NCBI RefSeq assembly: GCF_002741075.1
Contig: NZ_CP016634.1
Coordinates: 1,690,501 to 1,754,500, forward strand
Source of the DNA: Pseudomonas putida
Lineage (GTDB): Bacteria > Pseudomonadota > Gammaproteobacteria > Pseudomonadales > Pseudomonadaceae
Direction: 5' to 3'
Length of the DNA stretch: 64,000 nt
Shown: positions 4,375 through 62,013 of the stretch, piece by piece
How the letters are laid out: the number at the start of each line of letters is the position of its first letter
Position numbering within the stretch: position 1 is the stretch's first letter
The notes under the pieces: model-generated
The model's input: the letters and a program-made list of their open reading frames with translations, nothing else
Told to the model about the DNA's origin: nothing
The model's database searches: none
Position numbers and translations under genes: made by a program

Positions 4375-5537
<1,163 letters not shown>

Positions 5538-13727: not shown

Positions 13728-13788
13728 GCCGCTGATTGTGTCAGAGCAGGTCGTCAACAGCGATAAACCGATGGGCTAATGGCAGGGG

Positions 13789-15459: not shown

Positions 15460-16299
15460 CTAGAAAATTGATTCCGAATCTTCACCTTGCGGTGCGCTCA
15501 GTGTTTTCTTAATGAGATAGTTGCTGAGGGACGCACATAAGCCAACGATCAGCTCAGCTTCCGTGTAGGAAGGCTCACGTCCCTCTCTAAGGTGACGACC
15601 ATTCTCAGAGGCGTACCCCCAAGCCCGAGCGACTGCTTGATCGAGCGGCGGAGGGATAAGTGTGTTGTGCCGTTTTAGGATATCGCCTAGGTTGGCCTTC
15701 ACGTCACCAGTCACCTGACGGGCTACGCACTCAAGTGAGGCCATTGCATGCTGGATGGCGCCAGTAGGATCTGGCTGAGGCCGGCGGGACAAATCAGCTA
15801 TAGCCTGATGCAGCTCTTTGCTGGCCGTAGAGTGACCGGCATTGTGCTCAGCATCCTTTGCATTCCTGACGATCACCTCGAAGGATTCAGGGCCCCGTGT
15901 CTCGAGCCGCCCTGCGACCAGCTTCCATCCGATGCCAAACTCGACGAAGTAGTCGTTCAACTCGGTAACGAAGTGGTTGTACACATCCCGGTCGTAACGA
16001 GTCTCTGCAAGGTAGTCATGCAGACGTTCGATGATGTCGTACACCTTGAACCACTTGCACCCCTGAAGGAGGTCTTCAACCTCGTTGTCTACGTTGGGAA
16101 AGTCGCTCCAGTTGTTGCGATCGGGTTGCCGTTTTAGCGCCTGGCACACTATGCCTCGGAGAGTAGAGGGTGTCAGTCCGCAGTCATAGCACAGCTGGAC
16201 GAAGAAGCTGCGCAACTCTACGGGAGCGTCCTCTCTGACTGTGATTTCTGCCTCTTCAGTATTCGAGAAGCCGTGCCGCCTTGAGAATGTCTCCCTCAC
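15460..16299 (-). CDS. AbiJ-like abortive infection protein (HEPN family)
   Basis: A 279-residue protein matching the AbiJ N-terminal-domain-4 family: FSRRHGFSNTEEAEITVRED at the start, NWSDFPNVDNEVEDLLQGCK in the middle, then the highly typical SRRPQPDPTGAIQHAMASLE followed by GYASENGRHLREGREPS of the HEPN-like C-terminal half. HEPN proteins of this group are thought to be RNases in toxin or abortive-infection systems; a canonical Rx4-6H motif is not obvious here. GTG 16299 is preceded by AAGGAG. Divergent from the Septu-like operon by 60 bp, so both may share a control region. Confidence 0.75.
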   Translation of the reverse strand: MRETFSRRHGFSNTEEAEITVREDAPVELRSFFVQLCYDCGLTPSTLRGIVCQALKRQPDRNNWSDFPNVDNEVEDLLQGCKWFKVYDIIERLHDYLAETRYDRDVYNHFVTELNDYFVEFGIGWKLVAGRLETRGPESFEVIVRNAKDAEHNAGHSTASKELHQAIADLSRRPQPDPTGAIQHAMASLECVARQVTGDVKANLGDILKRHNTLIPPPLDQAVARAWGYASENGRHLREGREPSYTEAELIVGLCASLSNYLIKKTLSAPQGEDSESIF

Positions 16300-16359: not shown

Positions 16360-18207
16360 ATGTTCAGGCTAGGTCAAGCGTTGATATCCAAAAGCCACTA
16401 CCTTAAGGTACCGCGCGAGCGGATGCCAAGGCCTATAGCAGGGCATCAGGACAAAAAATTACCAACACTAGGGAGAGTAGCTTTGAAGGTCATTTACAAT
16501 GGGCGACCTAGCCGGCGCACAAATGCCTTACCTGCAGGCACAGAGGATATCCTAGAGCTACTTTCCAACGACTGGAACGACTTCGGATATGAAACCACAT
16601 TTATCGTTTCCTGTAGGATCGGGGGAGAGCGCATTGAACTAGCACCTGTGCGCATTCTCGTAGATGGGATCAAAAATACCAGGCGCTATTTTGATAATCT
16701 GTTGAGCGAAAACTGGGATGGGCACTTTCCGATACCTCATGTCAATTATATATCAATTCCTGGTGAGATTGCATTTTATGAACAGCTGCAAGGGGCGCTC
16801 TCTAAAGGCGGAGCACTTGAGGTTGCCGATTTGCTTCGCGATGCGAGCTATCTTGTACATATCAAAGACTCCACTGAAGTACAAAAACTAATAAGATCTG
16901 CAGGTTTCAAAGATTCACTGCAGCGTGAGCGAGGTAGCATCGAATCTTTCAGCGATGGTTGGAAGGTGCTAGACCAGTCATCCATCACTGCAATCGACAT
17001 CCCTTTTGAATTTAAGGATGTTTTCAACAATCAGTCATCGCTGAGCTTGAAATTTAGCAAAGATACAACAGGTCTGCCTCGCGAAATTAATGTGCTTATT
17101 GGAGCGAACGGCACAGGTAAATCTCAGTTTTTGCATCAAATGGTTGATGCTTGGCTTGCAGATGGCAGAAAGGAGCGGCGGCGTCACAACGACATGCCAG
17201 AGAGTATCAGCCGCCTAATTGTCGCTTCATATAGCCCATTCGAACTTTTCCCCGTGGATATGGAGGAGTCGAAGGTCAGAGATCGAGATGCTTATAAGTA
17301 TTTCGGTCTGAGGGGTAGGTTTGCATCGCGACCTGCCAATGAGTCAAAACAAGTCTCGAACTCATCAGTTTCTCTTTCCAGAGAAATCCCCAAAAAAGAC
17401 ACCGTTAGATCGATGCTTGATTGCGTGGCAGATGATCAACGATATCGCCATATTAAGCACTGGGGCCAGAAGGTCAGAACTGCGACTCGCGTCCTTCAGG
17501 CTGCAATCGATTTCGATGAAATAGCTCTCAAGGTCAAGCCTCGGGTCAACTCTGATGATCTCGTCAGCGATGGCGATGTTGAAGAGCCATTCAAGGTCAT
17601 CACAACAAGAGCTAGAGAGACAAAGTTTGCAGTCATATCGCCTAGCACCATCCAAATGTGGGACTCAGATGTTCTAGCTAAAAGCATCGATAAAGATTTT
17701 GGGCTGGCATTCGTCAAAGGGGAAAAAGTTTTGGCGCTGAGCTCAGGGCAGCGTCTCTTTGCGTATTTGGTTATTAATTTACTAGGCGCTATCAAACGGA
17801 ACAGCTTGATTCTAATTGATGAGCCCGAGCTGTTCTTGCATCCTTCCCTTGAAGTGCAGCTTGTTGATATGCTGAAGCAAATCTTGGATAAATTTAACTC
17901 TAGGGCCGTTCTCGCAACACATTCGGTATCGATTGTACGAGAAATGCCCTCCGACTGCGTTCATGTCCTGGAACGCACTGAAGATAAGCTTGTGGTTAAG
18001 AATCCACCATTCCAAACCTTTGGTGGCGACGTGCAACGAATTGCGTCGTATGTCTTCGGGGATAAATCAGTTTCCAAGCCATTTGAACAATGGATCAGCA
18101 AGCGATTGGAGAGCATGACTGCTGATGAGCTAATAAAGTCGTTGAAGGGTCACATTAATGAAGAGCTAATCATTCAGATCCATTCAATGGAGGCTGAACA
18201 ATGGTAA
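16360..18207 (+). CDS. PtuA-like AAA/ABC ATPase (Septu-type defence)
   Basis: A 615-residue protein with an ATP-binding cassette of the SMC/overcoming-lysogenisation type: Walker A IGANGTGKS (about 247-255), signature ALSSGQRLFAYLV, Walker B LILIDEPELFLHPS and the switch histidine in LATHSVSIVREM. About 240 residues precede the Walker A strand. The next gene is an HNH nuclease translationally coupled to it (TAATG), the hallmark PtuA-PtuB layout of Septu and of the retron-Eco7 effector. No reverse transcriptase is nearby, so this is a Septu-like pair. ATG 16360 has no strong ribosome site; ATG 16423 is an alternative. Confidence 0.82.
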   Translation: MFRLGQALISKSHYLKVPRERMPRPIAGHQDKKLPTLGRVALKVIYNGRPSRRTNALPAGTEDILELLSNDWNDFGYETTFIVSCRIGGERIELAPVRILVDGIKNTRRYFDNLLSENWDGHFPIPHVNYISIPGEIAFYEQLQGALSKGGALEVADLLRDASYLVHIKDSTEVQKLIRSAGFKDSLQRERGSIESFSDGWKVLDQSSITAIDIPFEFKDVFNNQSSLSLKFSKDTTGLPREINVLIGANGTGKSQFLHQMVDAWLADGRKERRRHNDMPESISRLIVASYSPFELFPVDMEESKVRDRDAYKYFGLRGRFASRPANESKQVSNSSVSLSREIPKKDTVRSMLDCVADDQRYRHIKHWGQKVRTATRVLQAAIDFDEIALKVKPRVNSDDLVSDGDVEEPFKVITTRARETKFAVISPSTIQMWDSDVLAKSIDKDFGLAFVKGEKVLALSSGQRLFAYLVINLLGAIKRNSLILIDEPELFLHPSLEVQLVDMLKQILDKFNSRAVLATHSVSIVREMPSDCVHVLERTEDKLVVKNPPFQTFGGDVQRIASYVFGDKSVSKPFEQWISKRLESMTADELIKSLKGHINEELIIQIHSMEAEQW

Positions 18208-19043
18208 TGCGCTTGCCAACGCCGCAGCATTGTAGCGTCACGCTTGTCGATGATGTGGTCAGAGAAAGGCAGGGCGGATCAAATGCCCTGTACTTCACGG
18301 GCATTAAAGCGGAGTGGAAGGCGCGAACCCAGGTATACCTTGATAATAATGGCTCTCCGGCACACGTCCCAACGTGGGCGGCTATCCCTGTTGCAAAGAA
18401 GAAGAGCTTTAAGAATCTTTATACTCACCCAGCACCTGGAAGCGCCCAAGGCATTGTGCTAGACGACCTAAATGACCATGAACTGAACCTCTGCCCTGCA
18501 TGTGGGGAATTTGGCAAGCCCAACACACTCGACCACTACCTGCCAAAGGGGAAATACCCCCATTTCAGCATCACGCCAGTCAACCTCTTCCCAATGTGTG
18601 ACAGCTGTCAAAAAGAGAAGCTTGAGAAAACTCACACTGCCAGGGAGTCGAGGCTGTTTTTGCACCCGTATTTTGACGATTTTGTAGAAAGACAAATCTT
18701 ACGTATCGTCATCCACCCGCCTTATGATACACCGACGTTCTCAATCGAATTAATGGATTGGCTCTCGGACGAACAGCGAGCAGTAGTGCGAGCCCACATT
18801 CGAGAGCTGGCCATTGAACGTAGGTTTGCGGGCTTCTTTAAGGGAGAGAGTATGCGAATACTCAAGCATGCGGCCAAGATTAGAAAGGGTAACCAGACCA
18901 TTGAGGAATCGGTAGAGCTATTCCGATCACTGCACGAGGATCCCACCTTAAATAGCTGGCAACATCTGTATTACAGAGCTGTGTTGGACAATCCTGACAT
19001 GCTTGAATATCTAGCCACTGGGGTTCTTCCCGCCAAAATATAA
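18207..19043 (+). CDS. PtuB-like HNH endonuclease (Septu-type defence)
   Basis: A 278-residue HNH nuclease. Zinc-binding and catalytic residues are visible: LCPACGEFGKPNTLDHYLPK, then SITPVNLFPMCDSCQKEK (two CxxC pairs with DH and N in the HNH order). ATG 18207 overlaps the PtuA stop as TAATG; ATG 18201 is also possible. In Septu the ATPase and HNH protein assemble into one complex that cleaves nucleic acid upon phage infection (established for the family). Length and layout fit; target is unknown. Confidence 0.85.
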   Translation: MRLPTPQHCSVTLVDDVVRERQGGSNALYFTGIKAEWKARTQVYLDNNGSPAHVPTWAAIPVAKKKSFKNLYTHPAPGSAQGIVLDDLNDHELNLCPACGEFGKPNTLDHYLPKGKYPHFSITPVNLFPMCDSCQKEKLEKTHTARESRLFLHPYFDDFVERQILRIVIHPPYDTPTFSIELMDWLSDEQRAVVRAHIRELAIERRFAGFFKGESMRILKHAAKIRKGNQTIEESVELFRSLHEDPTLNSWQHLYYRAVLDNPDMLEYLATGVLPAKI

Positions 19044-19097
19044 TAGTGACCTCAGGTTGCAGGCGCTGATTCAAATGCGTCTGCAACTGTAGGTTTA

Positions 19098-19451
19098 ATG
19101 CAGCAGGATCTGACCGTCCTTCAGCAGACGCTTATGGTCAAGCATGAGGAGATCTCCCGATTGATTCGGGATAACGAGCGGTTCATTGCCGAGAATCGCC
19201 AACATGCCAGGGAAGCCTCACAGCGTCGTGAGGACGTGGAAGCCCTGCGTGGCGACCTCGGTATTGCCAATGCTGCGACTGCTCGAGCAGAAGGTGCTAG
19301 GGAACTACTCTCTCAGCAATTGGAAGCCAAGGCTAAAGAGGCTAGTGATGCCCTGTCCGAGGCCGCCGCAGCGAAGTTGAGAGAAGCTGAGTTGATGCTA
19401 AAGCTTGCCAATGTAGAAGCCGACCTCGACAAAATGGGCGACGGATCGTAG
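19098..19451 (+). CDS. Coiled-coil protein, KfrA-like fragment
   Basis: A 117-residue, almost entirely helical protein (heptads such as LTVLQQTLMVKHEEISRLIR, AKEASDALSEAAAAKLREAE). It resembles the coiled-coil part of KfrA-type plasmid DNA-binding proteins but lacks their N-terminal DNA-binding domain, so it is either a shortened derivative or a remnant. It follows PtuB by 54 bp on the same strand. A functional link to the Septu-like pair is possible but unproven. Confidence 0.5.
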   Translation: MQQDLTVLQQTLMVKHEEISRLIRDNERFIAENRQHAREASQRREDVEALRGDLGIANAATARAEGARELLSQQLEAKAKEASDALSEAAAAKLREAELMLKLANVEADLDKMGDGS

Positions 19452-19477
19452 GAGAGTAGTGCTGTGGGCATTCCTCT

Positions 19478-21718
19478 CTACGCCTCCAGAGCAAGAAGTC
19501 GAGCTGTGGTAACCGCGGCTTGGAGATCAAGATGGCTTGAGGCAAATGACTTCATCAGGAGTGAGCGGGGAAGGGCCCAATCCCATTTTTCTCGGATCAT
19601 ATTTTCGACGTTATCCAAGATGGGCTCCTCGTCCGAAACGTCCATTTCACCCACCACGCGCAACGCTCGCAACGTGTCTTCCTCACCGAAGGCAACCTCC
19701 AGGAAGAGTCCGTTGTTCTCGCACTGAATGCCCACATGCCTGAGCAACAAGACCAGCGCATCATTGGTGTAATCCCCCCGCCAGGTCGCCACGTGGCTTA
19801 CGGTAGCAGAGCCAACAATCGCCGCAGCACTCAAGCCGAGGGCACGGAAGTTACTCCGAGCTTCCTCCAGTAGGGCTTGAGCGTGTTTGTCCAGGAAGGG
19901 ACAAGGGGTGGTTTCCATCAGTACGTTTCGCATTTCAAGCCTGACGCGATCATCCACCTGCGCACCGAGACCATCAAACTGAGGAGGCTCGCCGCCCCGC
20001 GCCGGTGTGACCACGATCACCTTCGCTTCAAGGTCGACATCTTGAACTTGCCAACGTCTTCCGCCGAAGATGATGCGCTGCCCCTTGGTCAGGGGTTTGC
20101 TCACGGGCAGCGAGCCAAGTGGCTTGCCATCACGGAGCAAACGAAACTCTTCATCGCTCGTGAAAGCGGTATAGAACTCATAGTGGTTGATCAACCGCTC
20201 CCCGAGTTCGCCTGGCAGTAGAAGTCCTGAGCTGTCCTGGACGATCAACTCCTTCTCACCCATCCCTTTGAGCAAAGACAGGAAATCAGGTTTGGTAACG
20301 CTCGCAAAGCTGCCGCTTGCTATGAGATTTCCCCATAATTGGGCGGCCGAGGCACCGCCGAGCTGAGCAATCGAAGACAGGCACTGCTGTACAAGCGTCG
20401 AGGCGTGCAGGCCTCCCGACCGTGGTGGTTCAAACCATCCACTGATCAGTAAGCGGATCATGGCAACCGTTTGGACAAGGCCCTCACGTAACTGATCGGA
20501 GAGATCAGACTGATCCGTTAAGGGGCGCTCTCGGCAGTACACCCTGAGCATGGCAGGCTCGCCGGGTCGACGACCTGAGCGGCCAAGCCGTTGCCTGAGG
20601 CTCGCCACAGAGGGTGGGGAGCCGATCTGTGCGACCGTCCTGATGTTACCGATGTCGATACCCAGCTCAAGGGTGGTAGTACATACGGCAGAAGCTGGAG
20701 GATCTCCCGCTTTCAACGCCCGTTCGGCATCTTGGCGCAGTTCCTTGGACAAGCTACCGTGGTGCGGCCAGAACTCGTTTGGCACTCCATCGTTCTCGCA
20801 CAGTGAGCGCAGACGGTCGGCAAACCATTCAACCTCTTGGCGCCTGTTGGGGAAGATCAGGTTGTTGTGCCCCCGCAAAACCTTGTACAGGTGGCCTGCG
20901 ATAGCCACTTTGGTACCTGAGGTGTCGGCCTTATCGGCGCCTTCATCTGTTAACGCATTTGTGAGGTGTTCCGCCACCAGTTGCTGCATGGGCTGTTCAA
21001 GGTAGCCGCGCACCTGCACTTGGAGTTCCTGGCCAGAGGATTTCGACTCGATGATGGTGATGTCATCAGGGCGAGCCGGCCTCAGAAATTTTTGGGCCAG
21101 CGACATCTCCCCAAGCGTCGCGGAAAGTCCTACGCGAGGCAGAGCCCTGCCTACGACGATCTCAACCCGCTGCATGAGCGATTGCAGTTGCTTACCGCGC
21201 TCACTGCCAATGAAGGCATGAAGCTCATCGATGACGATGTAGCGCAGGTTCTGAAAAGCCCCAGGTAAACTCGAGCCTCTGTTTACGAAGAGGCCTTCGA
21301 GGGACTCCGGCGTGATCAGCAGGATGCCCTCAGGCGATTTCAGGAACCGTTGTTTCTTGCTTGCTGCCACATCACCATGCCAGGCAACGACGGGCAGCTC
21401 TAGCCGCTCGCACAGCCGGCTGAGCCTGTCCCATTGGTCATTGATCAGTGCCTTGAGTGGGCTGATATACAGCACTGCGCCAGCGGGCTCGCGGTCATTG
21501 AGGAGGTTGGTCAGGATGGGGAGGAATGCAGCCTCTGTTTTACCTGCCGCGGTAGACGCTGCAATGATCACGTCGCGATCAGCACCCACCAAGGCCGGTA
21601 CCGCCCACTCTTGGGCATCACGTAACGACGTCCACCCCTGTGACCAGATCCATTGCTGAACCTCGGGGTGTAGACGCTCAAACGAAGAAGAGTCAGAGCT
21701 TGAAGCTGGCGAGCTCAT
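19478..21718 (-). CDS. DEAD/DEAH-box helicase, BrxHI/Lhr-like
   Basis: A 746-residue superfamily 2 helicase. Motif I is ASTAAGKTEAA, II is IVIDELHAF, III is GLSATLGEM, and VI is RQRLGRSGRRPGEPAM; the two RecA folds are followed by a long C-terminal region as in Lhr-like helicases. ATG 21718 (with GAGG 6 nt upstream) is preferred; the frame opens to 21757. Either start overlaps the end of the BrxD-like gene, so they are coupled. Pairing with BrxD recalls BrxHI of BREX type 2, but no BREX methylase or phosphatase is present. Last gene of the trio. Confidence 0.85.
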   Translation of the reverse strand: MSSPASSSDSSSFERLHPEVQQWIWSQGWTSLRDAQEWAVPALVGADRDVIIAASTAAGKTEAAFLPILTNLLNDREPAGAVLYISPLKALINDQWDRLSRLCERLELPVVAWHGDVAASKKQRFLKSPEGILLITPESLEGLFVNRGSSLPGAFQNLRYIVIDELHAFIGSERGKQLQSLMQRVEIVVGRALPRVGLSATLGEMSLAQKFLRPARPDDITIIESKSSGQELQVQVRGYLEQPMQQLVAEHLTNALTDEGADKADTSGTKVAIAGHLYKVLRGHNNLIFPNRRQEVEWFADRLRSLCENDGVPNEFWPHHGSLSKELRQDAERALKAGDPPASAVCTTTLELGIDIGNIRTVAQIGSPPSVASLRQRLGRSGRRPGEPAMLRVYCRERPLTDQSDLSDQLREGLVQTVAMIRLLISGWFEPPRSGGLHASTLVQQCLSSIAQLGGASAAQLWGNLIASGSFASVTKPDFLSLLKGMGEKELIVQDSSGLLLPGELGERLINHYEFYTAFTSDEEFRLLRDGKPLGSLPVSKPLTKGQRIIFGGRRWQVQDVDLEAKVIVVTPARGGEPPQFDGLGAQVDDRVRLEMRNVLMETTPCPFLDKHAQALLEEARSNFRALGLSAAAIVGSATVSHVATWRGDYTNDALVLLLRHVGIQCENNGLFLEVAFGEEDTLRALRVVGEMDVSDEEPILDNVENMIREKWDWALPRSLLMKSFASSHLDLQAAVTTARLLALEA

Positions 21719-22988
21719 CGTCGGCCTCGACTTCAAGATCTTGTTGCCCACCCTCATCTCTAGACAGCTCCACGGCGCCGAGCAATGTTCGCCAATCCGC
21801 TGTAGGGTTCTGCTCGATCACCGCGAGCAGGTTGATGAATGCGGTAATGGTCGTGCGTGGTGTCCGGAAATAGGCCTCGCCCAAGCGCTGGTTGCAGTGC
21901 GCCATGAACGCGGGGATGGCTTCGTCTGGCAGCAAAAACTTCTCAGGCTCACCGAAGGCATAGACATTGCGCAGTTTCTGCAGCAGCACGTAGAAATCTT
22001 CAGGGGTCAGACTGCTGAGCCGAATGACCGGCCCAGAAAGGTCGACCAGGCCAGACTTAGCGAAGCTGTTTTCTGCAAGACGCGATTGCAGGGCAGGGTA
22101 GCTGTACAGCCCCCGACGCGTGTCCATCAGAAACTCTGGTGTGCCGCCCAAGACAAAGCCCAGACCTTCAGCGGAGCCCTGCAACGAGTCGTTGAGGATG
22201 CGCAGGATCTGTTCATAGTTGGCGTTCCGCGCCTGGGTGTTTGCCAGTTTGTACAGGTTGACCAATTCATCCAGGCAAACCATCAAGCCGCCAAAGCCGG
22301 CCAGACGCACAAACCGAGACAGCAATTTCAACTGGTCGTAGACGGAGGCATCGTCGACGATCGTACGCACACCCAGGGCAGCCCGGGCATCGGTCTTGGT
22401 GGAAAATTCGCCGCGCAGCCAACGGATAGCGTCAGCCTTGAGCTGCTCATTGCCTTCCTCGAAGCCGCGGCAGTAGGCGGCAATGACGTCGGCAAAGTCA
22501 TAGCCATTGACCATCTCGGTGAGCTCCGCCAAGTACTCACGAATGACCACCTCGCTGTCGACACCCTTGGCCTTGGCTTCCGTTTTAGCGTGGGAAATGA
22601 ATTTCTCGACAATACCCTGAAGCGCACCGCCATCGGGCTTGGTACGCGTGGCCATGTTCTTGGCCAGCTCGGAGTAAAGGGAGCGTGCCTGGCCACCCGA
22701 AGCATGAAGACGACGGTCAGGATTCAAGTCGGCGTGCATGGTGACGAGCTTGCGCTCCATGGCGATGCCGCGAACCAGGTTGAGGAAGAAGGTTTTACCC
22801 GCGCCATACTCGCCAACGACGACGCGGAATGCGGAGCCGCCATCTGCGAGACGATCCACATCCTTGAGCAGCGAGTCTAGTTCACCCGCTCGACCTACCT
22901 GGATCAGGTGCTGCCCTACACGGGGCACAACACCTGCGCGCAGCGATTGAATGACCGCGTCGCGATCCTTGGCTCTTATCTTACTCAT
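21693..22988 (-). CDS. BrxD-like P-loop ATPase (DUF2791)
   Basis: A 431-residue ATPase. Walker A is GEYGAGKTFFLNLV (residues 59-72); Walker B is GLMVCLDELVNLYKL; a later segment LSSLTPEDFYVLLQKLRNVY is typical of the BREX BrxD/DUF2791 family. Its ATG overlaps the TerB-gene stop (ATGA) and its end overlaps the helicase start, so the three are one operon. The family acts as an ATP-driven switch partnered with helicases in defence loci; the exact job is not known. Confidence 0.85.
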   Translation of the reverse strand: MSKIRAKDRDAVIQSLRAGVVPRVGQHLIQVGRAGELDSLLKDVDRLADGGSAFRVVVGEYGAGKTFFLNLVRGIAMERKLVTMHADLNPDRRLHASGGQARSLYSELAKNMATRTKPDGGALQGIVEKFISHAKTEAKAKGVDSEVVIREYLAELTEMVNGYDFADVIAAYCRGFEEGNEQLKADAIRWLRGEFSTKTDARAALGVRTIVDDASVYDQLKLLSRFVRLAGFGGLMVCLDELVNLYKLANTQARNANYEQILRILNDSLQGSAEGLGFVLGGTPEFLMDTRRGLYSYPALQSRLAENSFAKSGLVDLSGPVIRLSSLTPEDFYVLLQKLRNVYAFGEPEKFLLPDEAIPAFMAHCNQRLGEAYFRTPRTTITAFINLLAVIEQNPTADWRTLLGAVELSRDEGGQQDLEVEADDELASFKL

Positions 22989-25393
22989 AGGGCTAATTCA
23001 TCCAGAATGTCGGGGTTGATTTCGATGGGGTCGTCGCCTTCAGTCACGGGCATGTCGAACAGCTCAAACGCTGTGTCATTGATCCGTTCCAGGGCGCCAT
23101 CCAACATCAGTTCCATATCACTGGCGGCGTCTTCCAGCTCAGCGCGGCTCCATTCAGTCCGAGAAACCAACAAACGGAGGAACGCGGAATGCTCGACGTC
23201 CAAGCCATGTACGGTAGCAAGCTGTTCGGCGGTACTGCCTTCCTGTTCTTGGAGCGCTCCGGGTTCCGAGGCGCTAGGTGTTTCAACGACTGCTTCCTCA
23301 CCGAAGACGCTGGCCAGTAGCGCCGACACTTCTGCCGTTTCTTGCTGTAGACGAGCAACTTTTGTCATGTCCAGGGCAAAGCCAACACTTTCCGGCGCCT
23401 GAGTCACCGTGCTCGAAGCGGTAGTTTCCACTGCATGAGAGGGGCGAACAGCTGCACTATGGAGGTCGCTGTAGACAAATTGCGGATCGAGGGCGAGCGA
23501 TTTATAAACGCGCTCGAGCAGCTTCACCTCCTGTGGCGTGACCTCGCCATCCGCTTGCGCAAGATGGGCCAGGAAGCTGGCAATTTTTCGCTTGGCCTCG
23601 ATCGTCAGAGGCTCAAGCTTCTTCTTGAGGCTGGCTAACGTGGGTGGTTGCTTCAGTTGAATCTGGAGGTGTGCCTTCAAGCGTTTACGATGCGCAACGC
23701 AGAGGTGATCCCACGAGTCAATGTGGCCCGACAGCAGATTCACCTCCTCAAGCGAGGTGTCACCGTCTGCCGCAGCGACTGCACTGGCAAGATCTAAAGT
23801 CACTGCTGCAGCGCTGTAAGCATCGGTAGAGCGAAGGGTGCCTTCGTCAGAGTCGGCAGCGAACAGCGCGATGGTGTCTTCTGCCTTGGGCGTGCGACTG
23901 CCAGACAGCACGTCGGGTTCCAATCCGATCCGCTTGCCCTCCAACGCCCGAGCGAGGGCGATCACTTTGTCGCGTGAAAGCGCGCCGGCAGATTTGAAGC
24001 GGCCTGCCAGCTCACCGAAACTCATGCAGATGGTTTCGCCCCCGACGCGTTGCTCCAACTGTTCGAGTTCTGCTTTTGCTTCAGCAGGCCAAAGTTCTGT
24101 TGGCAACTGTAGGATGGCTTCCAAGCTATCCCCGGCGTCTGGATTGCGCCCCAAGTACCGACTGTAAGCGTCAAGTACGTTGGTGCAGTCCTCGACAATG
24201 ACCTGCAGCTTGTTACGCGTTCCCGAGGTTGCCGCAACATCGGGAAGGTCACCTACGGCCACTGCCGGAATGCTCAATCCGGCAGAAGCAGGGCGATAGG
24301 CAATTTTCAGCTTGGTCTTGTTCTGAGGAAGCACAATGCCGTTGGGGTAGCGCTTCGCGAATTCGTTTTTGAAGAGCGCTGCGAATTGCTCAGGACACCT
24401 GGTCACGGGTGTACGCCTGGAAATGTTCGGTTCTGCAAGCGCCCAGGCCAATGCCCAGCCCGGATTGAGCGGATACTTGTCCACGGCCATCTGTCCCAGC
24501 GCAACGCGCAGTGACATCGGCAACTCATAACCATCTGCGGAAATGGCGCCGGGCTCACTCATGTAGCTTTGAGGTTGAACAGAACCCGTGTCGATATGGG
24601 CGAGGAAGCGAGTAGCGTAGCTGCGGAAAGAATTGTTGTCGCCGTAGAGACCAAGCAAGCGCTCGACCTCGGCCTTGATAGCTGGGATCTCTGCCTTAGC
24701 CTGAGGATCAGTCGGTGCATCGACCAGCGCGCGGCGCTCAAGCCCATAGAAAAACAGGAACACGTAACCCGCATCAGCAGGCTGGCGACGACCTCCTGCC
24801 AACCATTGCAGATACGCTCGCCGCGCCTCGGGTGTGATGCTCCGGTAGCTTGGCCAGTAGGGCATCTGTCGCTCGGTGAGGTTCATCGGTGAGCGGGCGA
24901 CACGAAGCGTGGCATCGATCAAGGACGGTTCAGATTGGCCGAATTGTGTCGCGCGCTCGGTGATGTAGAGCAGTCCACCGGGGATGGCCAATCCAGCCAC
25001 GTTGATGGATTCACCTTCAATAAGCCAACGAACCCCCGTGGGTTTAGCACTGGGTTTTGGGATGGCATAGTTCTGACTATCGCTGGACGATCCGATCTGG
25101 ACGGTATGAAAGTCCCGCTCGCGGGTACTGGTACTGGTACTGAACTGGACAGTTACAGTGGGAGAGGTCGCTTGTCGAGAGGCCGCAGCGATCTCGGCAA
25201 CAATGTCATCTTCAGGAACGTAGGGCTTCGCCCGGGTGGCGCGTCTGACGGCCCATACCAGCACGCCAATGCCAAGGATAACCCCAATGGCGATCCACAC
25301 CTGTTTTGGAATCTGTGCCAATAAGGCAACGACGAACAACAAGGCGTACAGAGCGATCGGCCCTCCGCCGCTCCCTTTGCGCTTCCGTGGCAT
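22985..25393 (-). CDS. TerB-N/TerB/TerB-C domain membrane protein
   Basis: An 802-residue protein. The N-terminus has two membrane segments (IALYALLFVVALLAQIP and VWIAIGVILGIGVLVWAV). A TerB-N domain follows (DAGYVFLFFYGLERRALVD), then a TerB-like helical domain (LDLASAVAAADGDTSLEEVN; a second copy-like FLAHLAQADGEVTPQEVKLL), and a TerB-C end (EWSRAELEDAASDMELMLDG, then ALERINDTAFELFD). Such proteins were described among tellurite/phage-stress (Ter-related) membrane complexes. Here it is the first gene of the trio with a BrxD-like ATPase and helicase, suggesting a membrane-tethered sensor for a nucleic-acid motor (inference). Confidence 0.85.
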   Translation of the reverse strand: MPRKRKGSGGGPIALYALLFVVALLAQIPKQVWIAIGVILGIGVLVWAVRRATRAKPYVPEDDIVAEIAAASRQATSPTVTVQFSTSTSTRERDFHTVQIGSSSDSQNYAIPKPSAKPTGVRWLIEGESINVAGLAIPGGLLYITERATQFGQSEPSLIDATLRVARSPMNLTERQMPYWPSYRSITPEARRAYLQWLAGGRRQPADAGYVFLFFYGLERRALVDAPTDPQAKAEIPAIKAEVERLLGLYGDNNSFRSYATRFLAHIDTGSVQPQSYMSEPGAISADGYELPMSLRVALGQMAVDKYPLNPGWALAWALAEPNISRRTPVTRCPEQFAALFKNEFAKRYPNGIVLPQNKTKLKIAYRPASAGLSIPAVAVGDLPDVAATSGTRNKLQVIVEDCTNVLDAYSRYLGRNPDAGDSLEAILQLPTELWPAEAKAELEQLEQRVGGETICMSFGELAGRFKSAGALSRDKVIALARALEGKRIGLEPDVLSGSRTPKAEDTIALFAADSDEGTLRSTDAYSAAAVTLDLASAVAAADGDTSLEEVNLLSGHIDSWDHLCVAHRKRLKAHLQIQLKQPPTLASLKKKLEPLTIEAKRKIASFLAHLAQADGEVTPQEVKLLERVYKSLALDPQFVYSDLHSAAVRPSHAVETTASSTVTQAPESVGFALDMTKVARLQQETAEVSALLASVFGEEAVVETPSASEPGALQEQEGSTAEQLATVHGLDVEHSAFLRLLVSRTEWSRAELEDAASDMELMLDGALERINDTAFELFDMPVTEGDDPIEINPDILDELAL

Positions 25394-25534
25394 ATGAGTG
25401 TTCCGTACAGTAAGTAATGGCCAAATGACATTCTTACGGATTTTTCGAGGCCGGCCAAGCTGAATAGACGAAGGGATTACTCAAAACAATGCTGAACTGG
25501 ATGGCCAGTAGCATTGGTCTGTCAGGCTAAGCTG

Positions 25535-25559
25535 GGCTTCAGCTGTCGCGGCTGAAGCC
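25535..25559. terminator. Stem-loop between pPIWI-RE cassette and TerB trio
   Basis: GGCTTCAGC (25535-25543) pairs with GCTGAAGCC (25551-25559) around a 7-nt loop, in the 209-bp gap after the pPIWI-RE stop. No long T-tract. It suggests that the two minus-strand cassettes are separate transcripts or attenuated. Confidence 0.45.
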
Positions 25560-25602
25560 ACTAGGACGCAGGTCTTCTCACGACACCAACGCCACGGCCA
25601 CA

Positions 25603-27945
25603 TTACGCAAATGAGCTTCTATGTGCTTCAACATAGGGATGATCAGCTGCGATCTTCTTCCCGAGATGCATCGGGCCCGGCAATCGTATGTACCAGTCCC
25701 AGAGGGGAGCATGGCGACATAGAAGACCAATGCCTTCTGCCACAACGGCTTCATTCAGAAAATCGCCAGGTTGGAGGACAACTAGTTCAGTCACGCCAAG
25801 TTGGTGCCACGGCTTATCTAGCCCCTCATCTGCACTGTATCGGTTGGCATTACGATGGGAGGACTCTTTGTTGTAATGTCGGGATGGGGAGACGACGTAG
25901 TGAACGCGACTGTCGTCCTCAGCGCTGTATAGAGCTATATGATTGCCAATATGCGCCGGAGTAGCTGGCGATTTCGAATGGTTGCCCGTCACCAGCGCGC
26001 TGTTCTCATCGCAACGTACCCTGACGACGGCCGCATTATTCGGTACCGGAGGAAGATCCCCGGCTGGAGCGTCCTGCAACATTTTGTAGATTCGAGCCAG
26101 GCCCTTGTCGAGGCACACAATCAACGGCTGTTCCAGGGTACGTCTTGGTGCAAGGAAGGCTTGATTGACCAAGCGTTTGACCTCCTGCTCGCTGAGAAGC
26201 TTTTTGGTGCTATGGATGAGGGCAACAGCCTCGCCATACGGATACCACCGACCCACCGCGCCATCCTCATGGCTCCCCCAAAAAACTTCCGCTCTCTGGC
26301 TGCCGGTTTCAATGCGCGTGATGACCGGAAGGTGATCATACCCGCCGCCATCTGAAATACGCTCAAGGTACACGGATAGAATCATGGTATTTGAGGCCAA
26401 TCGCGGTGCTTCCGGCAGTGGCATCGGAATCAGTCCATGCAACCGAATGCACTCGATCAATGCGTTCAGCGACTGATGATCTGCATCCGGCTTCCCTCGC
26501 TGAGCTCGCCTGGGCTTGATGGGGGGATGGAAGATGAACTGGGTACGCACACCATGGCGAGCGAACAGATCACGCAGCTTGTGTTTGGGATCACCCACCT
26601 TTTTCCTTGCCAACTCTGGCGTGGTTTCGACGATGACCACTTGCGCCGAAGTACGCTGGATTTCAGGAAGCACCTCTGATTTGAACCACGCTTCCATATT
26701 GGCATCGTGCTCACAGGGCTGGAGTAGATGCGTTGCCGTGTCGGATACCGAAAGGCGCTTGAGCTCAAACTTTGGCGCCTCAAGGCGTTTGAACAGCTTG
26801 GCCTGAGTTGCAAGGGCATTGGTGGCCTCATGAAGACGCATGACAAGGTCAGCAGAAGAGGCAAGCACCATGACCGGTAAACCTGGCAAGGTCGATTCAC
26901 CGACCAACCGTTTCCGACGGAAAGCCGAAATCACCCGTTGCGCCAACATCGGCTTGGTACCAGGTACGCATTCGGTGAGATGAAAGCTGGCTTCATCAAA
27001 AAAAAGTGGGCCGGCGCCAGCCCCAATCGCGGATTTGGAGGGAGTAGTCCCAAAAATGGGGCGGATACAGCTATCTATCGGAATGCTTCCCTCAACGATG
27101 GCGGGCAGGGGATCAAACCCAAGGTAGCCCAGGATGCGGCTGGTGGGGTGAACGTAGTGGGTCACCCACTTCCCATCAACCGCTGGGGGCGTTTTGACTC
27201 TGCAGCAGACGATCCCGTTATTCGAATTCACCCATGCGTGAAGCTTCTTCCCCACCCAGTTAGGCATCACTCTGTTGATATGTACCCTCAAATCTAGGTA
27301 AGGCTTCTGATGACCCGGAAGCATGGATAGCTTCAAGTCGAGCGCATGGTGGGCGATCTCTCCGTCTTCGGCCGCCAAAATGGGAGTGTCCCATGTCAGA
27401 AGCGTCATGCCGTCTCTGTTGTGCCGATAATCGGCTGTCTCGAATAACTTCACTGGCGCGCCTGGCTCGGTCTTCATGAGCTTGGCAGCCATACGCTGTC
27501 CGACAAGCCATGGCACGACAGCGTAGGCACTGCCATTGGTGGCAGTGGGCGTGAAGAGTGCGCTGGCTTGCAGCGGAATCAACTCTTTGATGACAAGCTG
27601 TTTGGCAACACCCGGGAGGCTGTGGCGGTAGGATTTCAGCACTTCTTCCCCCCACATCTCCAGTGCGTCGTTGAGTATGGAGAGGGGGATCTCATTGAGC
27701 ATAAGCAACGCTGGAGCATCCGACCGAGTTGACGGTCTGGAGTTGGCCTTCACTGGCCCTCTGGAAATCACGGCTAGCACTTCTTGCAAGCCTCGAGTAG
27801 GGAGATTCCTGTCCTTGAATGGGGCGACCGCTTCGATCGCACGCCAGGCGTCGTAGAATTCCGGATCAACCACGGTTTGGTAGACATGCCCTAGCTCAGC
27901 AGGATCGAATCGGAACAGATTAGTGCGAAGGTGCTCTGTGGTCAT
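25603..27945 (-). CDS. pPIWI-RE family protein
   Basis: A 780-residue protein I assign to the prokaryotic PIWI-RE family. The C-terminal RNase H-like PIWI region shows GYDHLPVITRIETGSQRAEV, NNAAVVRVRCDENSALVTGN, HYVVSPSRHYNKESSHRNAN and the ending LWDWYIRLPGPMHLGKKIAA. The N-terminal half corresponds to the MID and flanking modules. The family is defined by conserved Arg and Glu near the guide-binding pocket and by the two partners found upstream here: a DinG-like helicase and an REase. It is proposed to target RNA:DNA hybrids or invading DNA. ATG 27945 follows GGGGAG; 15 bp after the helicase stop. Confidence 0.85.
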   Translation of the reverse strand: MTTEHLRTNLFRFDPAELGHVYQTVVDPEFYDAWRAIEAVAPFKDRNLPTRGLQEVLAVISRGPVKANSRPSTRSDAPALLMLNEIPLSILNDALEMWGEEVLKSYRHSLPGVAKQLVIKELIPLQASALFTPTATNGSAYAVVPWLVGQRMAAKLMKTEPGAPVKLFETADYRHNRDGMTLLTWDTPILAAEDGEIAHHALDLKLSMLPGHQKPYLDLRVHINRVMPNWVGKKLHAWVNSNNGIVCCRVKTPPAVDGKWVTHYVHPTSRILGYLGFDPLPAIVEGSIPIDSCIRPIFGTTPSKSAIGAGAGPLFFDEASFHLTECVPGTKPMLAQRVISAFRRKRLVGESTLPGLPVMVLASSADLVMRLHEATNALATQAKLFKRLEAPKFELKRLSVSDTATHLLQPCEHDANMEAWFKSEVLPEIQRTSAQVVIVETTPELARKKVGDPKHKLRDLFARHGVRTQFIFHPPIKPRRAQRGKPDADHQSLNALIECIRLHGLIPMPLPEAPRLASNTMILSVYLERISDGGGYDHLPVITRIETGSQRAEVFWGSHEDGAVGRWYPYGEAVALIHSTKKLLSEQEVKRLVNQAFLAPRRTLEQPLIVCLDKGLARIYKMLQDAPAGDLPPVPNNAAVVRVRCDENSALVTGNHSKSPATPAHIGNHIALYSAEDDSRVHYVVSPSRHYNKESSHRNANRYSADEGLDKPWHQLGVTELVVLQPGDFLNEAVVAEGIGLLCRHAPLWDWYIRLPGPMHLGKKIAADHPYVEAHRSSFA

Positions 27946-27960
27946 TGACGCATGCTCCCC

Positions 27961-30900
27961 TTATCGAATGTATTGCTGCATTGCCCCCGCCATGCCTGCG
28001 TGCTCCTGACAGAAGTCATCCCATTCCCCATTTTTCTTCATATGCTGGATGCTAGCCCTTAGCAAATCAGCCCAGGATGTCTTGCCATCGACAAACGCCG
28101 CATCACCAAAATAGCAAGTGATTGGCGTTTCACCACGGCGCCCCCTACCGGCCAGCTGCGCCAGGTCGACTAGAATGTTCATGATCGTGAAATGGCGGAT
28201 GTTCTCCGGCTGGCTGGAGAAATTGGGCAAGGCGAATCGAATGGCATTGAGATTACGGTAAGCCAGTGACCTGGACGCAACCATGGCCTCACCAGGCGTC
28301 CTGTAGAAACCCAAGCTTTTACTGTTGTCATACGTCACATGCCCCAAGGTGTCAGCAGAATTGTCAGAGGGCGGAAGCGGCCGAACGCACACGATGATGG
28401 CGCCGATGGCGGAACGACCGTTGGGATGAACAATGTTATGGCCACGTGCAATCGGAGACAGCGAGCTCACCAGAAAGCGCTTGTCCTTATGCTCTCCGGT
28501 CAGTAAATCAGGTAGTTCATGATGAAACATGGCGCAATCTGCCGGCATTTCCGTTGCTCGGGCAGCAGCACTCTTGCCCCGAATCCATAGCACCTGCTCA
28601 CCTAGGCGCCCCAAGTCCTCTGATGGCTCTTGCTTGCTGAATGCATGGCGCAGCGCTATCGCAAGTACCTCGGCATCTGAGTCGCTGTTTGTTATCAGGA
28701 CAAAACGGCCCCGGGTTGGGTCTTCCTTCATTTGAGCCTGCATCATTGGCGGCAAACACAAGGCAAGCTCTTCGGCCAGATCCCTCACCTTGCGTTTTCG
28801 CATCCTGGGTCGACTACCGGATATCTGAGCTGTCGTTGGCAGGTTGCAGAAAGAAATCTGTCCCGCGGCATCAGGAACATCGATGAGGTCGGTCGCAGGC
28901 AGGTCATAACGGCTCGCACCCGGAAAGTGCGCGGTGGCTGAAAGCCCGATGAAAACGCGCTGTGCGTTTGAAAAAGCCAGGGAAGTGAGGTTGGGTAGAA
29001 ACTGCAGAGTGGCGTGTGGGTCACCCTTGAGCGTTTCCACATGCAGGGTTGCTGGGCCATGATCCCCAGCCTGGTATTTGAAACCGCAGATAGGGTGCTG
29101 GAGCGGCCCGTTACGAACAAGCGTTATTGGGGGAGTTCCCTCCAAGGCATTCTCCACCTCGCGCGCATTTGGCACGTCAGCCCAAAGCAAATCTCGCATG
29201 TGGCGGTGGAGTATCGCTATCTGCTCCTGGACAAGGCCCAATGCCCCGCGCAGGATCAGCGCAGCCTTCATATCTCCCGATTTGGTTCCCGCTTTGCGAA
29301 TGTGCCCCGCGTCAGAAAGTCGTTTGAGGATATTGGTCAGTTGACGGATTACGTCTGCCGGAGCTCGGGCTTCCTTGATGCCCCAGTAGGTCAGATTGTC
29401 ATGCAAGTCATGCAACTCTTTCGGTACTGACCGATCGTTCAGGCGGTATAGGGCTTCAAGCATGTCAGGGTCGACTTGGAGCGTATGCTGCAACATCTTG
29501 TCCTCGGACTGAGGCCATCGCATGCCATGGCTAGGCCACCGAAAATGCTTTTCGTCACATAGGTCGAGGATTTCATCCGGGGTTTGCGCAGTGAACGTCA
29601 GCGCCCACTTCAAGACGTTGAACTTGCTCTGTTTCATGCCTTGGATACCGGGACGACTATCAATCTCCGTCCGCAGGCGAGCAAGTGCCGTGTCGTGACG
29701 TTTTCCTCCCAGTTCCAGGGACGTGGTGCAGTTCTTGATCGTACGGCTAAGCAGCCCATCGATCTCATCCACCAGGAAAATTGATTTCGTCCGAAGCAAA
29801 AGCTCCAGGTAGCTGCGTCTTGTGCCTAGACGGTCACTGTCCTCGAGCGGAATGCTGGTCGAGGCCGCAAGGAGTGCATCGTGATTCACGACCACGATGT
29901 CAGCTTTCAGTGCGCCGGCAAGCATCGACGTCTTCCCACACTTGAAGAGGAACGGGCAGTGGGCAATTTTCGAGATGCGCTCTTTGTCCTGACCTGTCGA
30001 CTCCACTAAGCGAAGTCCAAAGCAAGGCTCCCGGGAGGAGGGGATCGGTACGCTATCGGTGGCGTACCCCTGTAGTAGACAAATATGCTCATAGGGTGGT
30101 GATTGGCCACCTGTATCGAACTGCCGTGCAGCAATCTCAGCCAGGCGACGCTCGCCGTGCAGAGGCGCCACGGTCAGGTGTGGAGCGACAGCACTGAGCG
30201 AGTTTTTCAACTCGGCGGTCAATCCCTCGACCTCTAGCAGACCAGGCACCACCAGCACTACGGACTCCCCTCGGCGAGCAGCATCAATGGCCATCATGAC
30301 CATCAATACGGTTTTGCCAGAGCCAGTAGGCGCATTAACCCGATAAAAGATGCCCGCGGCAGCCTCCATGCTGCGCTCGCGTCGTAAGAGGTTCTGTAAG
30401 CTCTTCAGATGACTGCCGTGTAAGCGAGGCGAAGCATCCAGTTGCTCAGCGATTTCTTTGAGCGCCGAGTAACTCCAGTGAGCCGAGTGAGCTTCCGGTC
30501 GGACAGGGATCGGCAGTGTTTGATCAGGTGCCGGTAAGGCTGAAAGGTCAGCTTGATCAAACGAATAGTACTGATAGCGCTCGCCAAACTTGGCCCGCAG
30601 GTCAAAGCCTCTATCGATAGGTATTTTCTTGCGAACAGGAGGTTGGTACCGGCGAACAATGTGCAGGTAATCTTGAATCAGATCGCTGGCGTCCAAGACT
30701 TCAGCCAGCTGGTAGCGGTGATCAAAAGTGAGGCTGACCAAGTCAGGCTCATCGACGAGCAAGAAGTAACAGTGAGGCTGCAGCATCAGGCTCTGGGCGG
30801 TGTACAGAAAGATCCACGGCTCTGTAATTTCGGGATGCACGAAGCGCAGCGCAACAGCCAAGGACTGCCGCTCCTCCCTCGTGAGACCATGAAGCCCTCC

Positions 30901-31035
30901 CCAGTGAGCCAATTGGCCTGAAGCCAGCGCCGCCGCATCTGCAATGGTCGGTGTTTTACTCACATCGCGGCATGCGATGGCCAAAAAGAGGATGCAGCCG
31001 GCCTCGACACGATCACGCTCGGCGCTTGAGTTCAT
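27961..31035 (-). CDS. DinG-like helicase of the pPIWI-RE cassette (pPIWI_RE_Z type)
   Basis: A 1,024-residue helicase. Walker A is VNAPTGSGKTVLM (residues 233-245), the DExD motif is IFLVDEIDGLL, and later motifs are IGLSATAHFPG, VSSLSPIARGHNIV and LAQLAGRGRRGETP. A cysteine group between motifs I and II (AHCPFLFKCGK with earlier Cys) resembles the iron-sulfur region of DinG/XPD-type enzymes but I could not prove a cluster site. It overlaps the REase gene end by 23 bp and is followed at once by the pPIWI-RE gene, the known order of the three-gene island. Confidence 0.85.
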   Translation of the reverse strand: MNSSAERDRVEAGCILFLAIACRDVSKTPTIADAAALASGQLAHWGGLHGLTREERQSLAVALRFVHPEITEPWIFLYTAQSLMLQPHCYFLLVDEPDLVSLTFDHRYQLAEVLDASDLIQDYLHIVRRYQPPVRKKIPIDRGFDLRAKFGERYQYYSFDQADLSALPAPDQTLPIPVRPEAHSAHWSYSALKEIAEQLDASPRLHGSHLKSLQNLLRRERSMEAAAGIFYRVNAPTGSGKTVLMVMMAIDAARRGESVVLVVPGLLEVEGLTAELKNSLSAVAPHLTVAPLHGERRLAEIAARQFDTGGQSPPYEHICLLQGYATDSVPIPSSREPCFGLRLVESTGQDKERISKIAHCPFLFKCGKTSMLAGALKADIVVVNHDALLAASTSIPLEDSDRLGTRRSYLELLLRTKSIFLVDEIDGLLSRTIKNCTTSLELGGKRHDTALARLRTEIDSRPGIQGMKQSKFNVLKWALTFTAQTPDEILDLCDEKHFRWPSHGMRWPQSEDKMLQHTLQVDPDMLEALYRLNDRSVPKELHDLHDNLTYWGIKEARAPADVIRQLTNILKRLSDAGHIRKAGTKSGDMKAALILRGALGLVQEQIAILHRHMRDLLWADVPNAREVENALEGTPPITLVRNGPLQHPICGFKYQAGDHGPATLHVETLKGDPHATLQFLPNLTSLAFSNAQRVFIGLSATAHFPGASRYDLPATDLIDVPDAAGQISFCNLPTTAQISGSRPRMRKRKVRDLAEELALCLPPMMQAQMKEDPTRGRFVLITNSDSDAEVLAIALRHAFSKQEPSEDLGRLGEQVLWIRGKSAAARATEMPADCAMFHHELPDLLTGEHKDKRFLVSSLSPIARGHNIVHPNGRSAIGAIIVCVRPLPPSDNSADTLGHVTYDNSKSLGFYRTPGEAMVASRSLAYRNLNAIRFALPNFSSQPENIRHFTIMNILVDLAQLAGRGRRGETPITCYFGDAAFVDGKTSWADLLRASIQHMKKNGEWDDFCQEHAGMAGAMQQYIR

Positions 31036-32044
31036 TGAGGCAACTGCTGTAGGTGTGGATGTATGGCCCCAAACGCTCTCTCAGTGCTGACAGAGATCGA
31101 GTCTGGTAGTCGGGAATGACAATCCAACGATTTGGCCCACGACTGGCAGGCTGCAGGTGTGCTTCAAGGGCTTCGGGGTAGCGCCACACCTTGGCGTCCA
31201 GATCCAGGGGCAAGCCACCGACCTCGATGCGCACGTCCGCCTCATCGACATCCGGCCACAGTATGGGAAGAAAGCCCATCGCGCGCAGGCCCCTGGCGAG
31301 CTGAATTTCCAGCAATCCCGGTAGCAAGGTGAACTTCCAGTAAGCATCTTGCAGCACCAAGGTTTCATCGCTGACCACCTGCCCCTTCAGAGTATTGCCA
31401 TCCAACCGATTGATGACCTGGCGGCGGTGCAGGTCGAAGATGCTTCCGGCGTGCTCGCACCACTGCGAGGGGCAGGCTATGTGGGACTGCGTGATCGTCA
31501 TTGGCCAGTGGCAGGAAGGGCACAGGTACATTTTGCCGGCGAGCACTTCATGGCGTTCCGGTTGCCGGTACAGGTCTTCCACGGAAAGGTCGAGAGGCTG
31601 AAACAACACGCGAAGTGGGTGGCGGGTTGTCTTGCCGTTCAGTACCAAGAACTCCCGGAAGCTTCGGTACAGCTCATCACCCGCAGGGATGGCCTTACAA
31701 ATGTCCCTCACACGCCGAATCAGTTGCTGGGTCTGCTCGTACTGCTCCCGGGCATTAAACTCCAGCAACAGCTCTGTGCACGTGCGGGTAGGGACATTGG
31801 AGGGAGCGAGGAGAACACCGGTGAGCTCCCCACGAATTTCATCCGGCAACCATGTTTCAAGAGGGTGGCGAAAATTGGCTTCCAGCTCTTGTGCCGTCAT
31901 CACGACATGGTCTGGGTGCAGGCGGTGTAAGTGGGCGCTGGCCTGCCTGAGCAGCTCGAATCCCTCAACACGGTTGCGCGCGCACTTGGACGCCGCGTCG
32001 GCAAGCCGCCACAGGAGATTTCTCCGGTACGCTTCTCTATCCAA
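31013..32044 (-). CDS. REase-fold nuclease of the pPIWI-RE cassette (pPIWI_RE_Y type)
   Basis: A 343-residue protein. A zinc ribbon is visible (C175, C178, C191, C196: CPSCHWPM..ACPSQWC), followed by a C-terminal restriction-endonuclease fold with E246 in LLEIQLARGLRAMGF and the D-x-D-x-K pattern in LDLDAKVW (D281, D283, K285). The start is TTG 32044 with AGGAG 8 nt upstream. It is the first gene of the cassette. It is expected to cut DNA; guidance by the PIWI partner is the published hypothesis. Confidence 0.85.
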   Translation of the reverse strand: MDREAYRRNLLWRLADAASKCARNRVEGFELLRQASAHLHRLHPDHVVMTAQELEANFRHPLETWLPDEIRGELTGVLLAPSNVPTRTCTELLLEFNAREQYEQTQQLIRRVRDICKAIPAGDELYRSFREFLVLNGKTTRHPLRVLFQPLDLSVEDLYRQPERHEVLAGKMYLCPSCHWPMTITQSHIACPSQWCEHAGSIFDLHRRQVINRLDGNTLKGQVVSDETLVLQDAYWKFTLLPGLLEIQLARGLRAMGFLPILWPDVDEADVRIEVGGLPLDLDAKVWRYPEALEAHLQPASRGPNRWIVIPDYQTRSLSALRERLGPYIHTYSSCLNELKRRA

Positions 32045-41163: not shown

Positions 41164-41183
41164 GGGATGCAAGGAGGCAGGCC

Positions 41184-56075: not shown

Positions 56076-56086
56076 GACGAACCTCC

Positions 56087-61895: not shown

Positions 61896-62013
61896 CCTTT
61901 GGCAACACCCGCGGTGGGCGGGCGCGGGCCGGTCTTGGGGCAGCAGCCTGCCCGCGATGCCCTTGCGCGCCTTCACCTGTCGGGCTTCATTCACCCCGGT
62001 ACGGTTGGTCTGC

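Follow-up and report, generated by a model that had tools for sequence, protein, structure and literature searches.

The window analysed here, a stretch of 64,000 nucleotides from a Pseudomonas putida genome (5.85 Mb assembly, 2 contigs), contains three overlapping genes on the minus strand, as had been described in the first-pass annotation.

sngA, 22985..25393, minus strand, 802 aa: TerB-domain protein (Pfam; PADLOC SngA, 420 bits; transmembrane segments by hydropathy; AF2 model)
sngB, 21693..22988, minus strand, 431 aa: BrxD-type ATPase (PF10923, 516 bits; PADLOC SngB, 614 bits; alignments)
sngC, 19478..21757 as listed, minus strand, 759 aa: predicted helicase (DEAD and Helicase_C; PADLOC SngC, 992 bits)
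Intergenic gap separating sngA from the pPIWI gene, 25394..25602, minus strand, 209 bases: likely holds the sngA leader (sequence)

All three frames are open and follow each other in the order A-B-C, with an overlap of 4 bases (ATGA) between sngA and sngB and, for the helicase frame as listed, of 65 bases with sngB. Since the PADLOC profile match of SngC starts at residue 23, the true start of sngC is probably the ATG at 21718, which would leave an overlap of 26 bases with sngB. A consensus scan of positions 18900-26000 revealed no sigma-70-like site in the 209 bases upstream of sngA.

For each of the three products the respective Sng model was the best PADLOC match. The runner-up models were BrxD for SngB (155 bits) and BrxHI for SngC (420 bits), and the Sng models were ahead of them by 459 and 572 bits, respectively. 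With E-values as small as 5e-299, obtained for the SngC model, this similarity does not arise by chance. Together with a gene order that is kept in distant relatives and with the restriction of phages by the Shango system of P. aeruginosa PA14, these best matches indicate that the trio is almost certainly a complete Shango anti-phage system, sngA-sngB-sngC, and the gene layout suggests a single operon. Shango is a known, named system with its own PADLOC models and published plaque data (PMC10250203), and the earlier view of the trio as a poorly described system is therefore abandoned. According to that report, Shango of PA14 reduced plating 10- to 100-fold for many, not all, phages, and Johnson et al. 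(PMC10250203) mention that another group detected Shango in E. coli as well. Some E. coli islands with ApsAB, an Argonaute-like anti-plasmid system, also hold Shango, as stated in a 2024 paper (PMC11096173). The locus studied here resembles PA14 Shango in gene content and domains as described, in its best PADLOC models and in its location within a defence island. In contrast, it belongs to another Pseudomonas and has other neighbours; the likeness is one of description and models, and the phage data are those of the PA14 copy.

What this locus holds is one more copy of Shango, a system that already has a name. Among the matches listed in a literature search on its mechanism, no title beyond that of PMC10250203 was devoted to Shango. 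A search pairing Shango with pPIWI-RE found no paper, and one pairing it with BrxD or BrxHI found only both versions of the Hachiman paper and a review. We add here a candidate docking tail common to SngB and BrxD, varied membrane anchors of SngA and a TerB_C end that is modelled as a winged helix. The likeness of the tails, the apparently unrelated kinds of SngA anchor and the sharing of islands with Argonaute-like systems were not found in print.

Distribution of Shango and its relation to BREX type 2

Of 199 Pseudomonas genomes, 20 matched the SngB model, 19 of them with more than 600 bits, and the remaining match (G161, 118 bits) corresponds to BrxD inside a BREX-2 locus. At all 19 loci around a full SngB in the 18 other Pseudomonas genomes, SngA and SngC were present. 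The SngC pieces of locus L031 lie 1.2 kb apart, and in L036 both SngA and SngB are partly duplicated. When 398 genomes of the phylum were searched, 24 matched the SngB model at E <= 0.001, and 11 of these (this genome included) scored at least 519 bits. Six genomes showed a place of 89-128 bits, two of them in addition to a full SngB; five of these places are BREX-2 loci and one (G522) belongs to another system. A single fragment reached 176 bits and the remaining matches stayed below 28 bits. At least parts of all three genes were detected at nine of the ten other phylum loci, three of which are truncated where the contig stops; SngC was missing from the tenth.

In the GTDB genome collection, at least 545 loci were found by a scan. 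The 80 best of them were retained; these lean to Pseudomonas and Burkholderiales and, combined with 6 plasmid loci, make up a set of 86 loci. Some of the 80 recur from the 199-genome set (L048 is G024 and L067 is G135), and the counts given above were made without the 80 loci. SngA lies ahead of SngB and SngC behind it in 85 of the 86 loci, the exception (L090) being a contig that begins 22 bases before sngB. The A-B-C order is common to Pseudomonadota, Actinomycetota, a fusobacterium and a haloarchaeon. Plasmids contained SngB-like matches, BrxD relatives included, in 695 of 72,556 records (521 of the 695 at 60-80% identity), and none occurred in 50,697 phage records.

Two altered copies were also encountered. 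Genome G214 (L164:7834-12873) has one long frame in which SngA-like, short SngB-like and short SngC-like stretches follow in a row, probably a decayed Shango remnant. In P. mandelii OWC5 (L067:7587-9332), the SngA frame is shortened to 582 aa, and this genome holds a second Shango copy.

The trio had been regarded as standing alone, outside BREX, and the wider comparison bears this out. Queries with BrxC, PglZ and PglX of BREX-2 matched at none of the 86 Shango loci (flanks of up to 10 kb, some shortened by contig ends), and the same queries matched 5, 5 and 4, respectively, of the five BREX-2 control loci L165-L169; the trio is not usually embedded in complete BREX loci. PglZ was present in 9 of the 199 Pseudomonas genomes and in none of the 19 with Shango, and since only 0.9 co-occurrences would be expected (p 0.40), these numbers give no evidence of avoidance. 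Among 29 SngB-bearing genomes checked for PglZ, three carried it above the cut-off, and in all three PglZ and Shango lay on different contigs. In this genome the PglZ match is sub-threshold only and lies about 3 Mb from the trio. Among 27 window ORFs scanned with PADLOC, no PglZ, no PglX methylase and no BrxC/PglY were detected, and for PglW, sought with the PADLOC models only, no match was listed.

Compared with BrxD and BrxHI from a BREX-2 locus of Pseudomonas, SngB shows about 25% and SngC about 32% identity. The ATPase and the helicase of the trio are homologous to BrxD and BrxHI but are not these proteins as such, the Sng models fitting far better; the earlier term "BrxHI-type" came close for the helicase, although SngC is the better designation. 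Both systems place an ORC/Cdc6-like ATPase before an Lhr/BrxHI-like helicase and share a comparable acidic-hydrophobic tail on the ATPase. In contrast to BREX-2, Shango lacks PglX, BrxC/PglY and PglZ and carries a TerB protein in front. Given the low identities and the better fit of its own models, Shango is a sister system and not a trimmed BREX, and a trimmed or decayed BREX locus was rejected in view of the missing matches to PglZ, BrxC and PglX at the 86 loci and of the PglZ counts. The idea in the first-pass annotation that TerB replaces PglX and PglZ is fair with regard to gene content, as the dyad is common to both. A 2026 BREX survey (PMC12839542) places BrxD among the ORC-Cdc6 AAA+ ATPases and proposes that it loads or activates BrxHI; the words Shango and TerB do not occur in the available text of this survey.

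Domains and conserved features of SngA, SngB and SngC

The genes and domains seen in the first-pass annotation were confirmed. In SngA, the Pfam domains TerB_N (204 bits), TerB (37 bits) and TerB_C (132 bits) were all above the cut-off, which rules out a chance similarity to TerB. The protein is arranged as a hairpin of two predicted transmembrane segments, a disordered linker, TerB_N (residues 127-330), TerB (residues 535-638) and TerB_C (residues 661-800). Hydropathy analysis located hydrophobic segments at residues 10-28 and 31-49, in agreement with helices at residues 12-26 and 30-53 of the AF2 model (pLDDT 80.6) and with the two-helix membrane segment predicted before. Both segments recur in 114 of 121 sequences, that is, the query and the best 120 of 1991 matches. 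Using a hydropathy cut and the first ATG or GTG as start, and excluding 5 of the 80 loci as incomplete or shortened, 60 of 75 full-length SngA proteins have one or two hydrophobic segments ahead of TerB_N. The other 15 are without a membrane segment under this automatic choice of starts, which counts against universal tethering. At least L050 and L062 among them are shortened or partly duplicated copies, and a Paraburkholderia group seems truly to be without a membrane segment, so that tethering of SngA does not appear to be universal. SngA of Natrinema carries a different membrane domain, TM2, and the anchors seem to be of several unrelated kinds. A fold comparison of the SngA model, effectively covering residues 523-655 and 723-802, gave TerB as the only clear match and, mainly for these residues, no clear enzyme match. 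The TerB_C end models as a winged helix.

SngB is the single match in this genome to BrxC_BrxD (PF10923) and has the Walker A motif GEYGAGKT, the Walker B motif CLDE and the C-terminal tail DDELASFKL. In an alignment of 31 SngB sequences, Walker A varied only by an A/S exchange at a single position, and the L-D-E residues of Walker B did not vary. The identity of SngB to the copies of Azospirillum, Sulfitobacter and Arthrobacter amounts to 62-64%, compared with 33-37% for SngA and 45-46% for SngC of the same loci. SngB is the slowest-evolving part of the system, as would be expected for a core that touches both partners.

The last nine residues of SngB carry 2.7-4.1 bits of information per alignment column, and residues 415-422 carry 1.0-2.5 bits, except for D417 (3.5 bits). 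A strict nine-residue pattern is found at the very C-terminus of 72 of the 86 SngB proteins, and a looser pattern, written after the data had been seen, inside the last 14 residues of all 86; the archaeal and fusobacterial proteins also carry the tail. In Pseudomonas, the likely start codon of sngC and the codons for the tail overlap, which would be a possible other cause of conservation. However, sngC begins past the sngB stop in 13 of the 86 loci and the tail is kept there, and the overlapping reading frame therefore does not explain it. A comparable [DNE][DE][IV]xL tail is present at or near the C-terminus of BrxD in 14 of 14 BREX-2 loci, a sample in which two sequences are identical in the tail. 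Examples are DDELASFKL for SngB, VDDIELDL for BrxD and DDEDLF for the ATPase of a Deinococcus dyad. Judged from these sequences, the tails of SngB and of BREX-2 BrxD are perhaps docking peptides. What speaks against a docking tail is that in L170, L205 and L207 neither of the two BrxD-like ATPases, which lie in tandem, has an acidic-hydrophobic tail, the second ATPase of L205 ending in QFKLN with the acid pair missing; in L170 and L205 a BrxHI-like helicase comes after these tailless ATPases. Also, a Pseudanabaena BrxD that adjoins a BREX-6 PglZ fits the tail pattern poorly.

SngC contains the Pfam domains DEAD (109 bits) and Helicase_C (56 bits) and is an SF2 helicase of the Lhr/BrxHI-like kind. 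In a published tree, SngC, BrxHI, DruE and DpdJ were placed in a potentially distinct clade (Hachiman paper, PMC12278908). DruE of Druantia and DpdJ of Dpd resemble SngC as SF2 helicases of that clade, but their systems differ from Shango in partner proteins and architecture. Pfam detected no nuclease domain in the trio.

Other arrangements of the ATPase-helicase dyad were observed. At L170:6509-12178, L205:6813-17697 and L207:4168-7391, a gene for a protein of 240-295 aa is followed by two tandem PF10923-type ATPases and then by a BrxHI-like helicase, which has 676 aa in L170 and lies within a 2070-aa two-helicase protein in L205; on the 8.6-kb contig of L207 no helicase was seen. The first gene of L170 is without detected similarity to those of L205 and L207, and neither SngA nor Pgl genes were detected at these three loci. 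A Deinococcus plasmid (L222:969-8383) encodes an LRV-repeat protein, a 451-aa protein, the BrxD-like ATPase ending in DDEDLF and an Lhr-like helicase, and may represent another front end on the dyad.

Possible mechanism of Shango

From the domains, the gene order, the conservation of the tail and the hydrophobic hairpin, we infer a possible mechanism. SngA would be a non-enzymatic scaffold that is mostly held at the inner membrane by its N-terminal hairpin and reaches with its disordered linker into the cytoplasm. Paired acidic D-G...E sites kept in its TerB domain might serve for sensing of a metal or ligand, and its TerB_C end might act as a winged-helix-like module. SngB, as an ORC/Cdc6-type AAA+ ATPase, would assemble on SngA and on DNA and would load or license the SF2 helicase SngC, perhaps via its conserved acidic-hydrophobic tail. 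SngC would then translocate on or unwind entering or replicating phage DNA, and the phage genome would either not be copied or be exposed to host nucleases. The slow evolution of SngB, the role proposed for BrxD in the BREX survey and the fold comparison of SngA speak for these roles. The structure model of SngB is of low confidence (pLDDT 48), which was counted against this mechanism. We consider the identification as Shango and the scaffold, loader and helicase roles, taken together, as a tentative reading that comes close to an even chance, and the mechanism by itself as slightly more tentative.

Should the tail join the ATPase to the helicase in Shango as well as in BREX-2, Shango would offer a three-protein model for the dyad of the larger BREX-2. 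A broader proposal, which we regard as doubtful, is that Shango and BREX-2 are built around a common, exchangeable engine, in which an ORC/Cdc6-like loader uses an acidic-hydrophobic docking tail at its C-terminus to hold an Lhr/BrxHI-like helicase, and that front ends were swapped around it. The front end of Shango would be a TerB scaffold that repeatedly gained unrelated membrane anchors, so that the helicase would be loaded at the membrane, the site of phage DNA entry.

TerB domains have been linked with stress responses. This background, the hydrophobic N-terminal hairpin in most SngA examined and the failure of Pfam to find a nuclease domain in the trio would suit an abortive outcome, in which SngC or SngB acts as a sensor of phage DNA or replication stress and the SngA hairpin then damages the membrane, so that the cell dies. 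Such an outcome seems rather unlikely to us, as the 15 of 75 SngA without a hydrophobic segment, some of them artefacts of shortened copies, still keep SngB and SngC.

Shango within defence islands

As the first-pass annotation had recognized, the trio lies in a block of defence genes, with PDC-S32, PDC-M01A/B, pPIWI-RE and Druantia type I nearby.

4719-5537, 12192-13757, 35989-37044 and 37683-38564: rve integrases and an IS66 transposase, encoded around the block of defence genes (Pfam)
15460-16299, minus strand: PDC-S32/AbiJ_NTD4-like gene (Pfam, PADLOC)
16360-19043, plus strand: PDC-M01A/B pair, PtuA-like ATPase and partner (Pfam, PADLOC)
19098-19451, plus strand: 117-aa ORF convergent with sngC (no Pfam match)
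25603-27945, minus strand: PprPIWI (Pfam, PADLOC)
27961-31035, minus strand: PprDinG (Pfam, PADLOC)
31013-32044, minus strand: PprRE (Pfam, PADLOC)
39934-51309, plus strand: complete Druantia type I, DruA, DruB, DruC, DruD and DruE (PADLOC)
52481-57355, minus strand: three adjacent genes of 700, 506 and 422 aa, beside Druantia
61698-61904, plus strand: cobalamin riboswitch (102 bits)

At other Shango loci the neighbours were different. Directly after Shango, Sulfitobacter (L047:10494-15305) encodes a PD-(D/E)XK protein and a UvrD-type helicase, and Natrinema (L224:9739-13227) a metallophosphoesterase and an SMC ATPase; Zorya ZorC/ZorD occur near Shango in L063 and L064. By motifs and size, ApsAB-like pairs were recognized in Azonexus (L086:998-7401), in a betaproteobacterial MAG (L096:986-7389) and in Aeromonas (L112:14030-20429). 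Each pair is made up of a large helicase (about 1400 aa), the C-terminal end of which is PD-(D/E)XK-like, and a partner of 714-742 aa, and the smaller partner occurs by itself at L053:1275-3350. The larger protein, for which Pfam gave DEAD alone (28 bits), has the Walker A motif QALGRGERR or QTIGRVER and D...[VI]DLK near its end, similar to QAVGRVER and D...DVK as given for ApsA in PMC11096173.

Such neighbours would fit a division of labour in which the trio only marks and opens phage DNA, by means of SngC, and a nuclease of the host or of a neighbouring gene (RecBCD, AddAB-like, SbcCD-like or ApsA-like) degrades it. The PD-(D/E)XK protein with its UvrD-type helicase in L047 and the metallophosphoesterase with its SMC ATPase in L224, both directly downstream, as well as the PD-(D/E)XK-like C-terminal motif of the nearby helicases in L086, L096 and L112 speak for it. 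However, the neighbours are unrelated and each is found in few loci, the commonest recognised one in 3 of 86 (Pfam on 10 neighbour proteins), and we judge this reading, too, to be improbable.

The neighbours at 25603-32044 form a complete pPIWI-RE island, 209 bases upstream of sngA and on the same strand, in the order REase, DinG and pPIWI that was described for the three-gene island (PMC3702460). REase, DinG and pPIWI are encoded by these neighbours and not by the trio; pPIWI-RE thus adjoins Shango as a defence trio of its own but is a separate system with its own order. pPIWI was detected in 7 of the 199 Pseudomonas genomes. Shango is present in 4 of these 7 and in 19 of all 199; a one-sided Fisher test on the 7 pPIWI-RE genomes gave p 0.0018, and p 0.011 when this genome was left out. 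Druantia DruE1, taken as a control, was found in 4 of 199 genomes, one of which, this genome, has Shango, and PglZ, the other control, in 9 of 199 and never together with Shango. The distance between Shango and pPIWI-RE is 0.2 kb here, 13 kb in G135 and 26 kb in G194, the two are remote in G094, and in Stutzerimonas xanthomarina (L080) both trios lie tail to tail. In the absence of a fixed arrangement, we consider them two modules that share islands. That they form one six-gene system, pPIWI-RE providing guide and nuclease and Shango the motor, was rejected as very improbable since, despite the common strand, the close spacing and the four shared genomes, 15 of the 19 Shango genomes lack pPIWI-RE and the arrangement differs each time (tandem, tail to tail, 13 kb, 26 kb, remote). 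Together with the ApsAB-like pairs and the published E. coli islands, these co-occurrences, small in number and noticed post hoc, hint at an association of Shango with Argonaute-like systems directed against invaders (pPIWI-RE and ApsAB-like).

Only three of the 86 loci, L048, L050 and L053, have a relative of the 117-aa ORF in the vicinity of Shango. None of the three genes beside Druantia had a PADLOC match, and the 700-aa product was also without a Pfam match; they possibly form an undescribed cassette.
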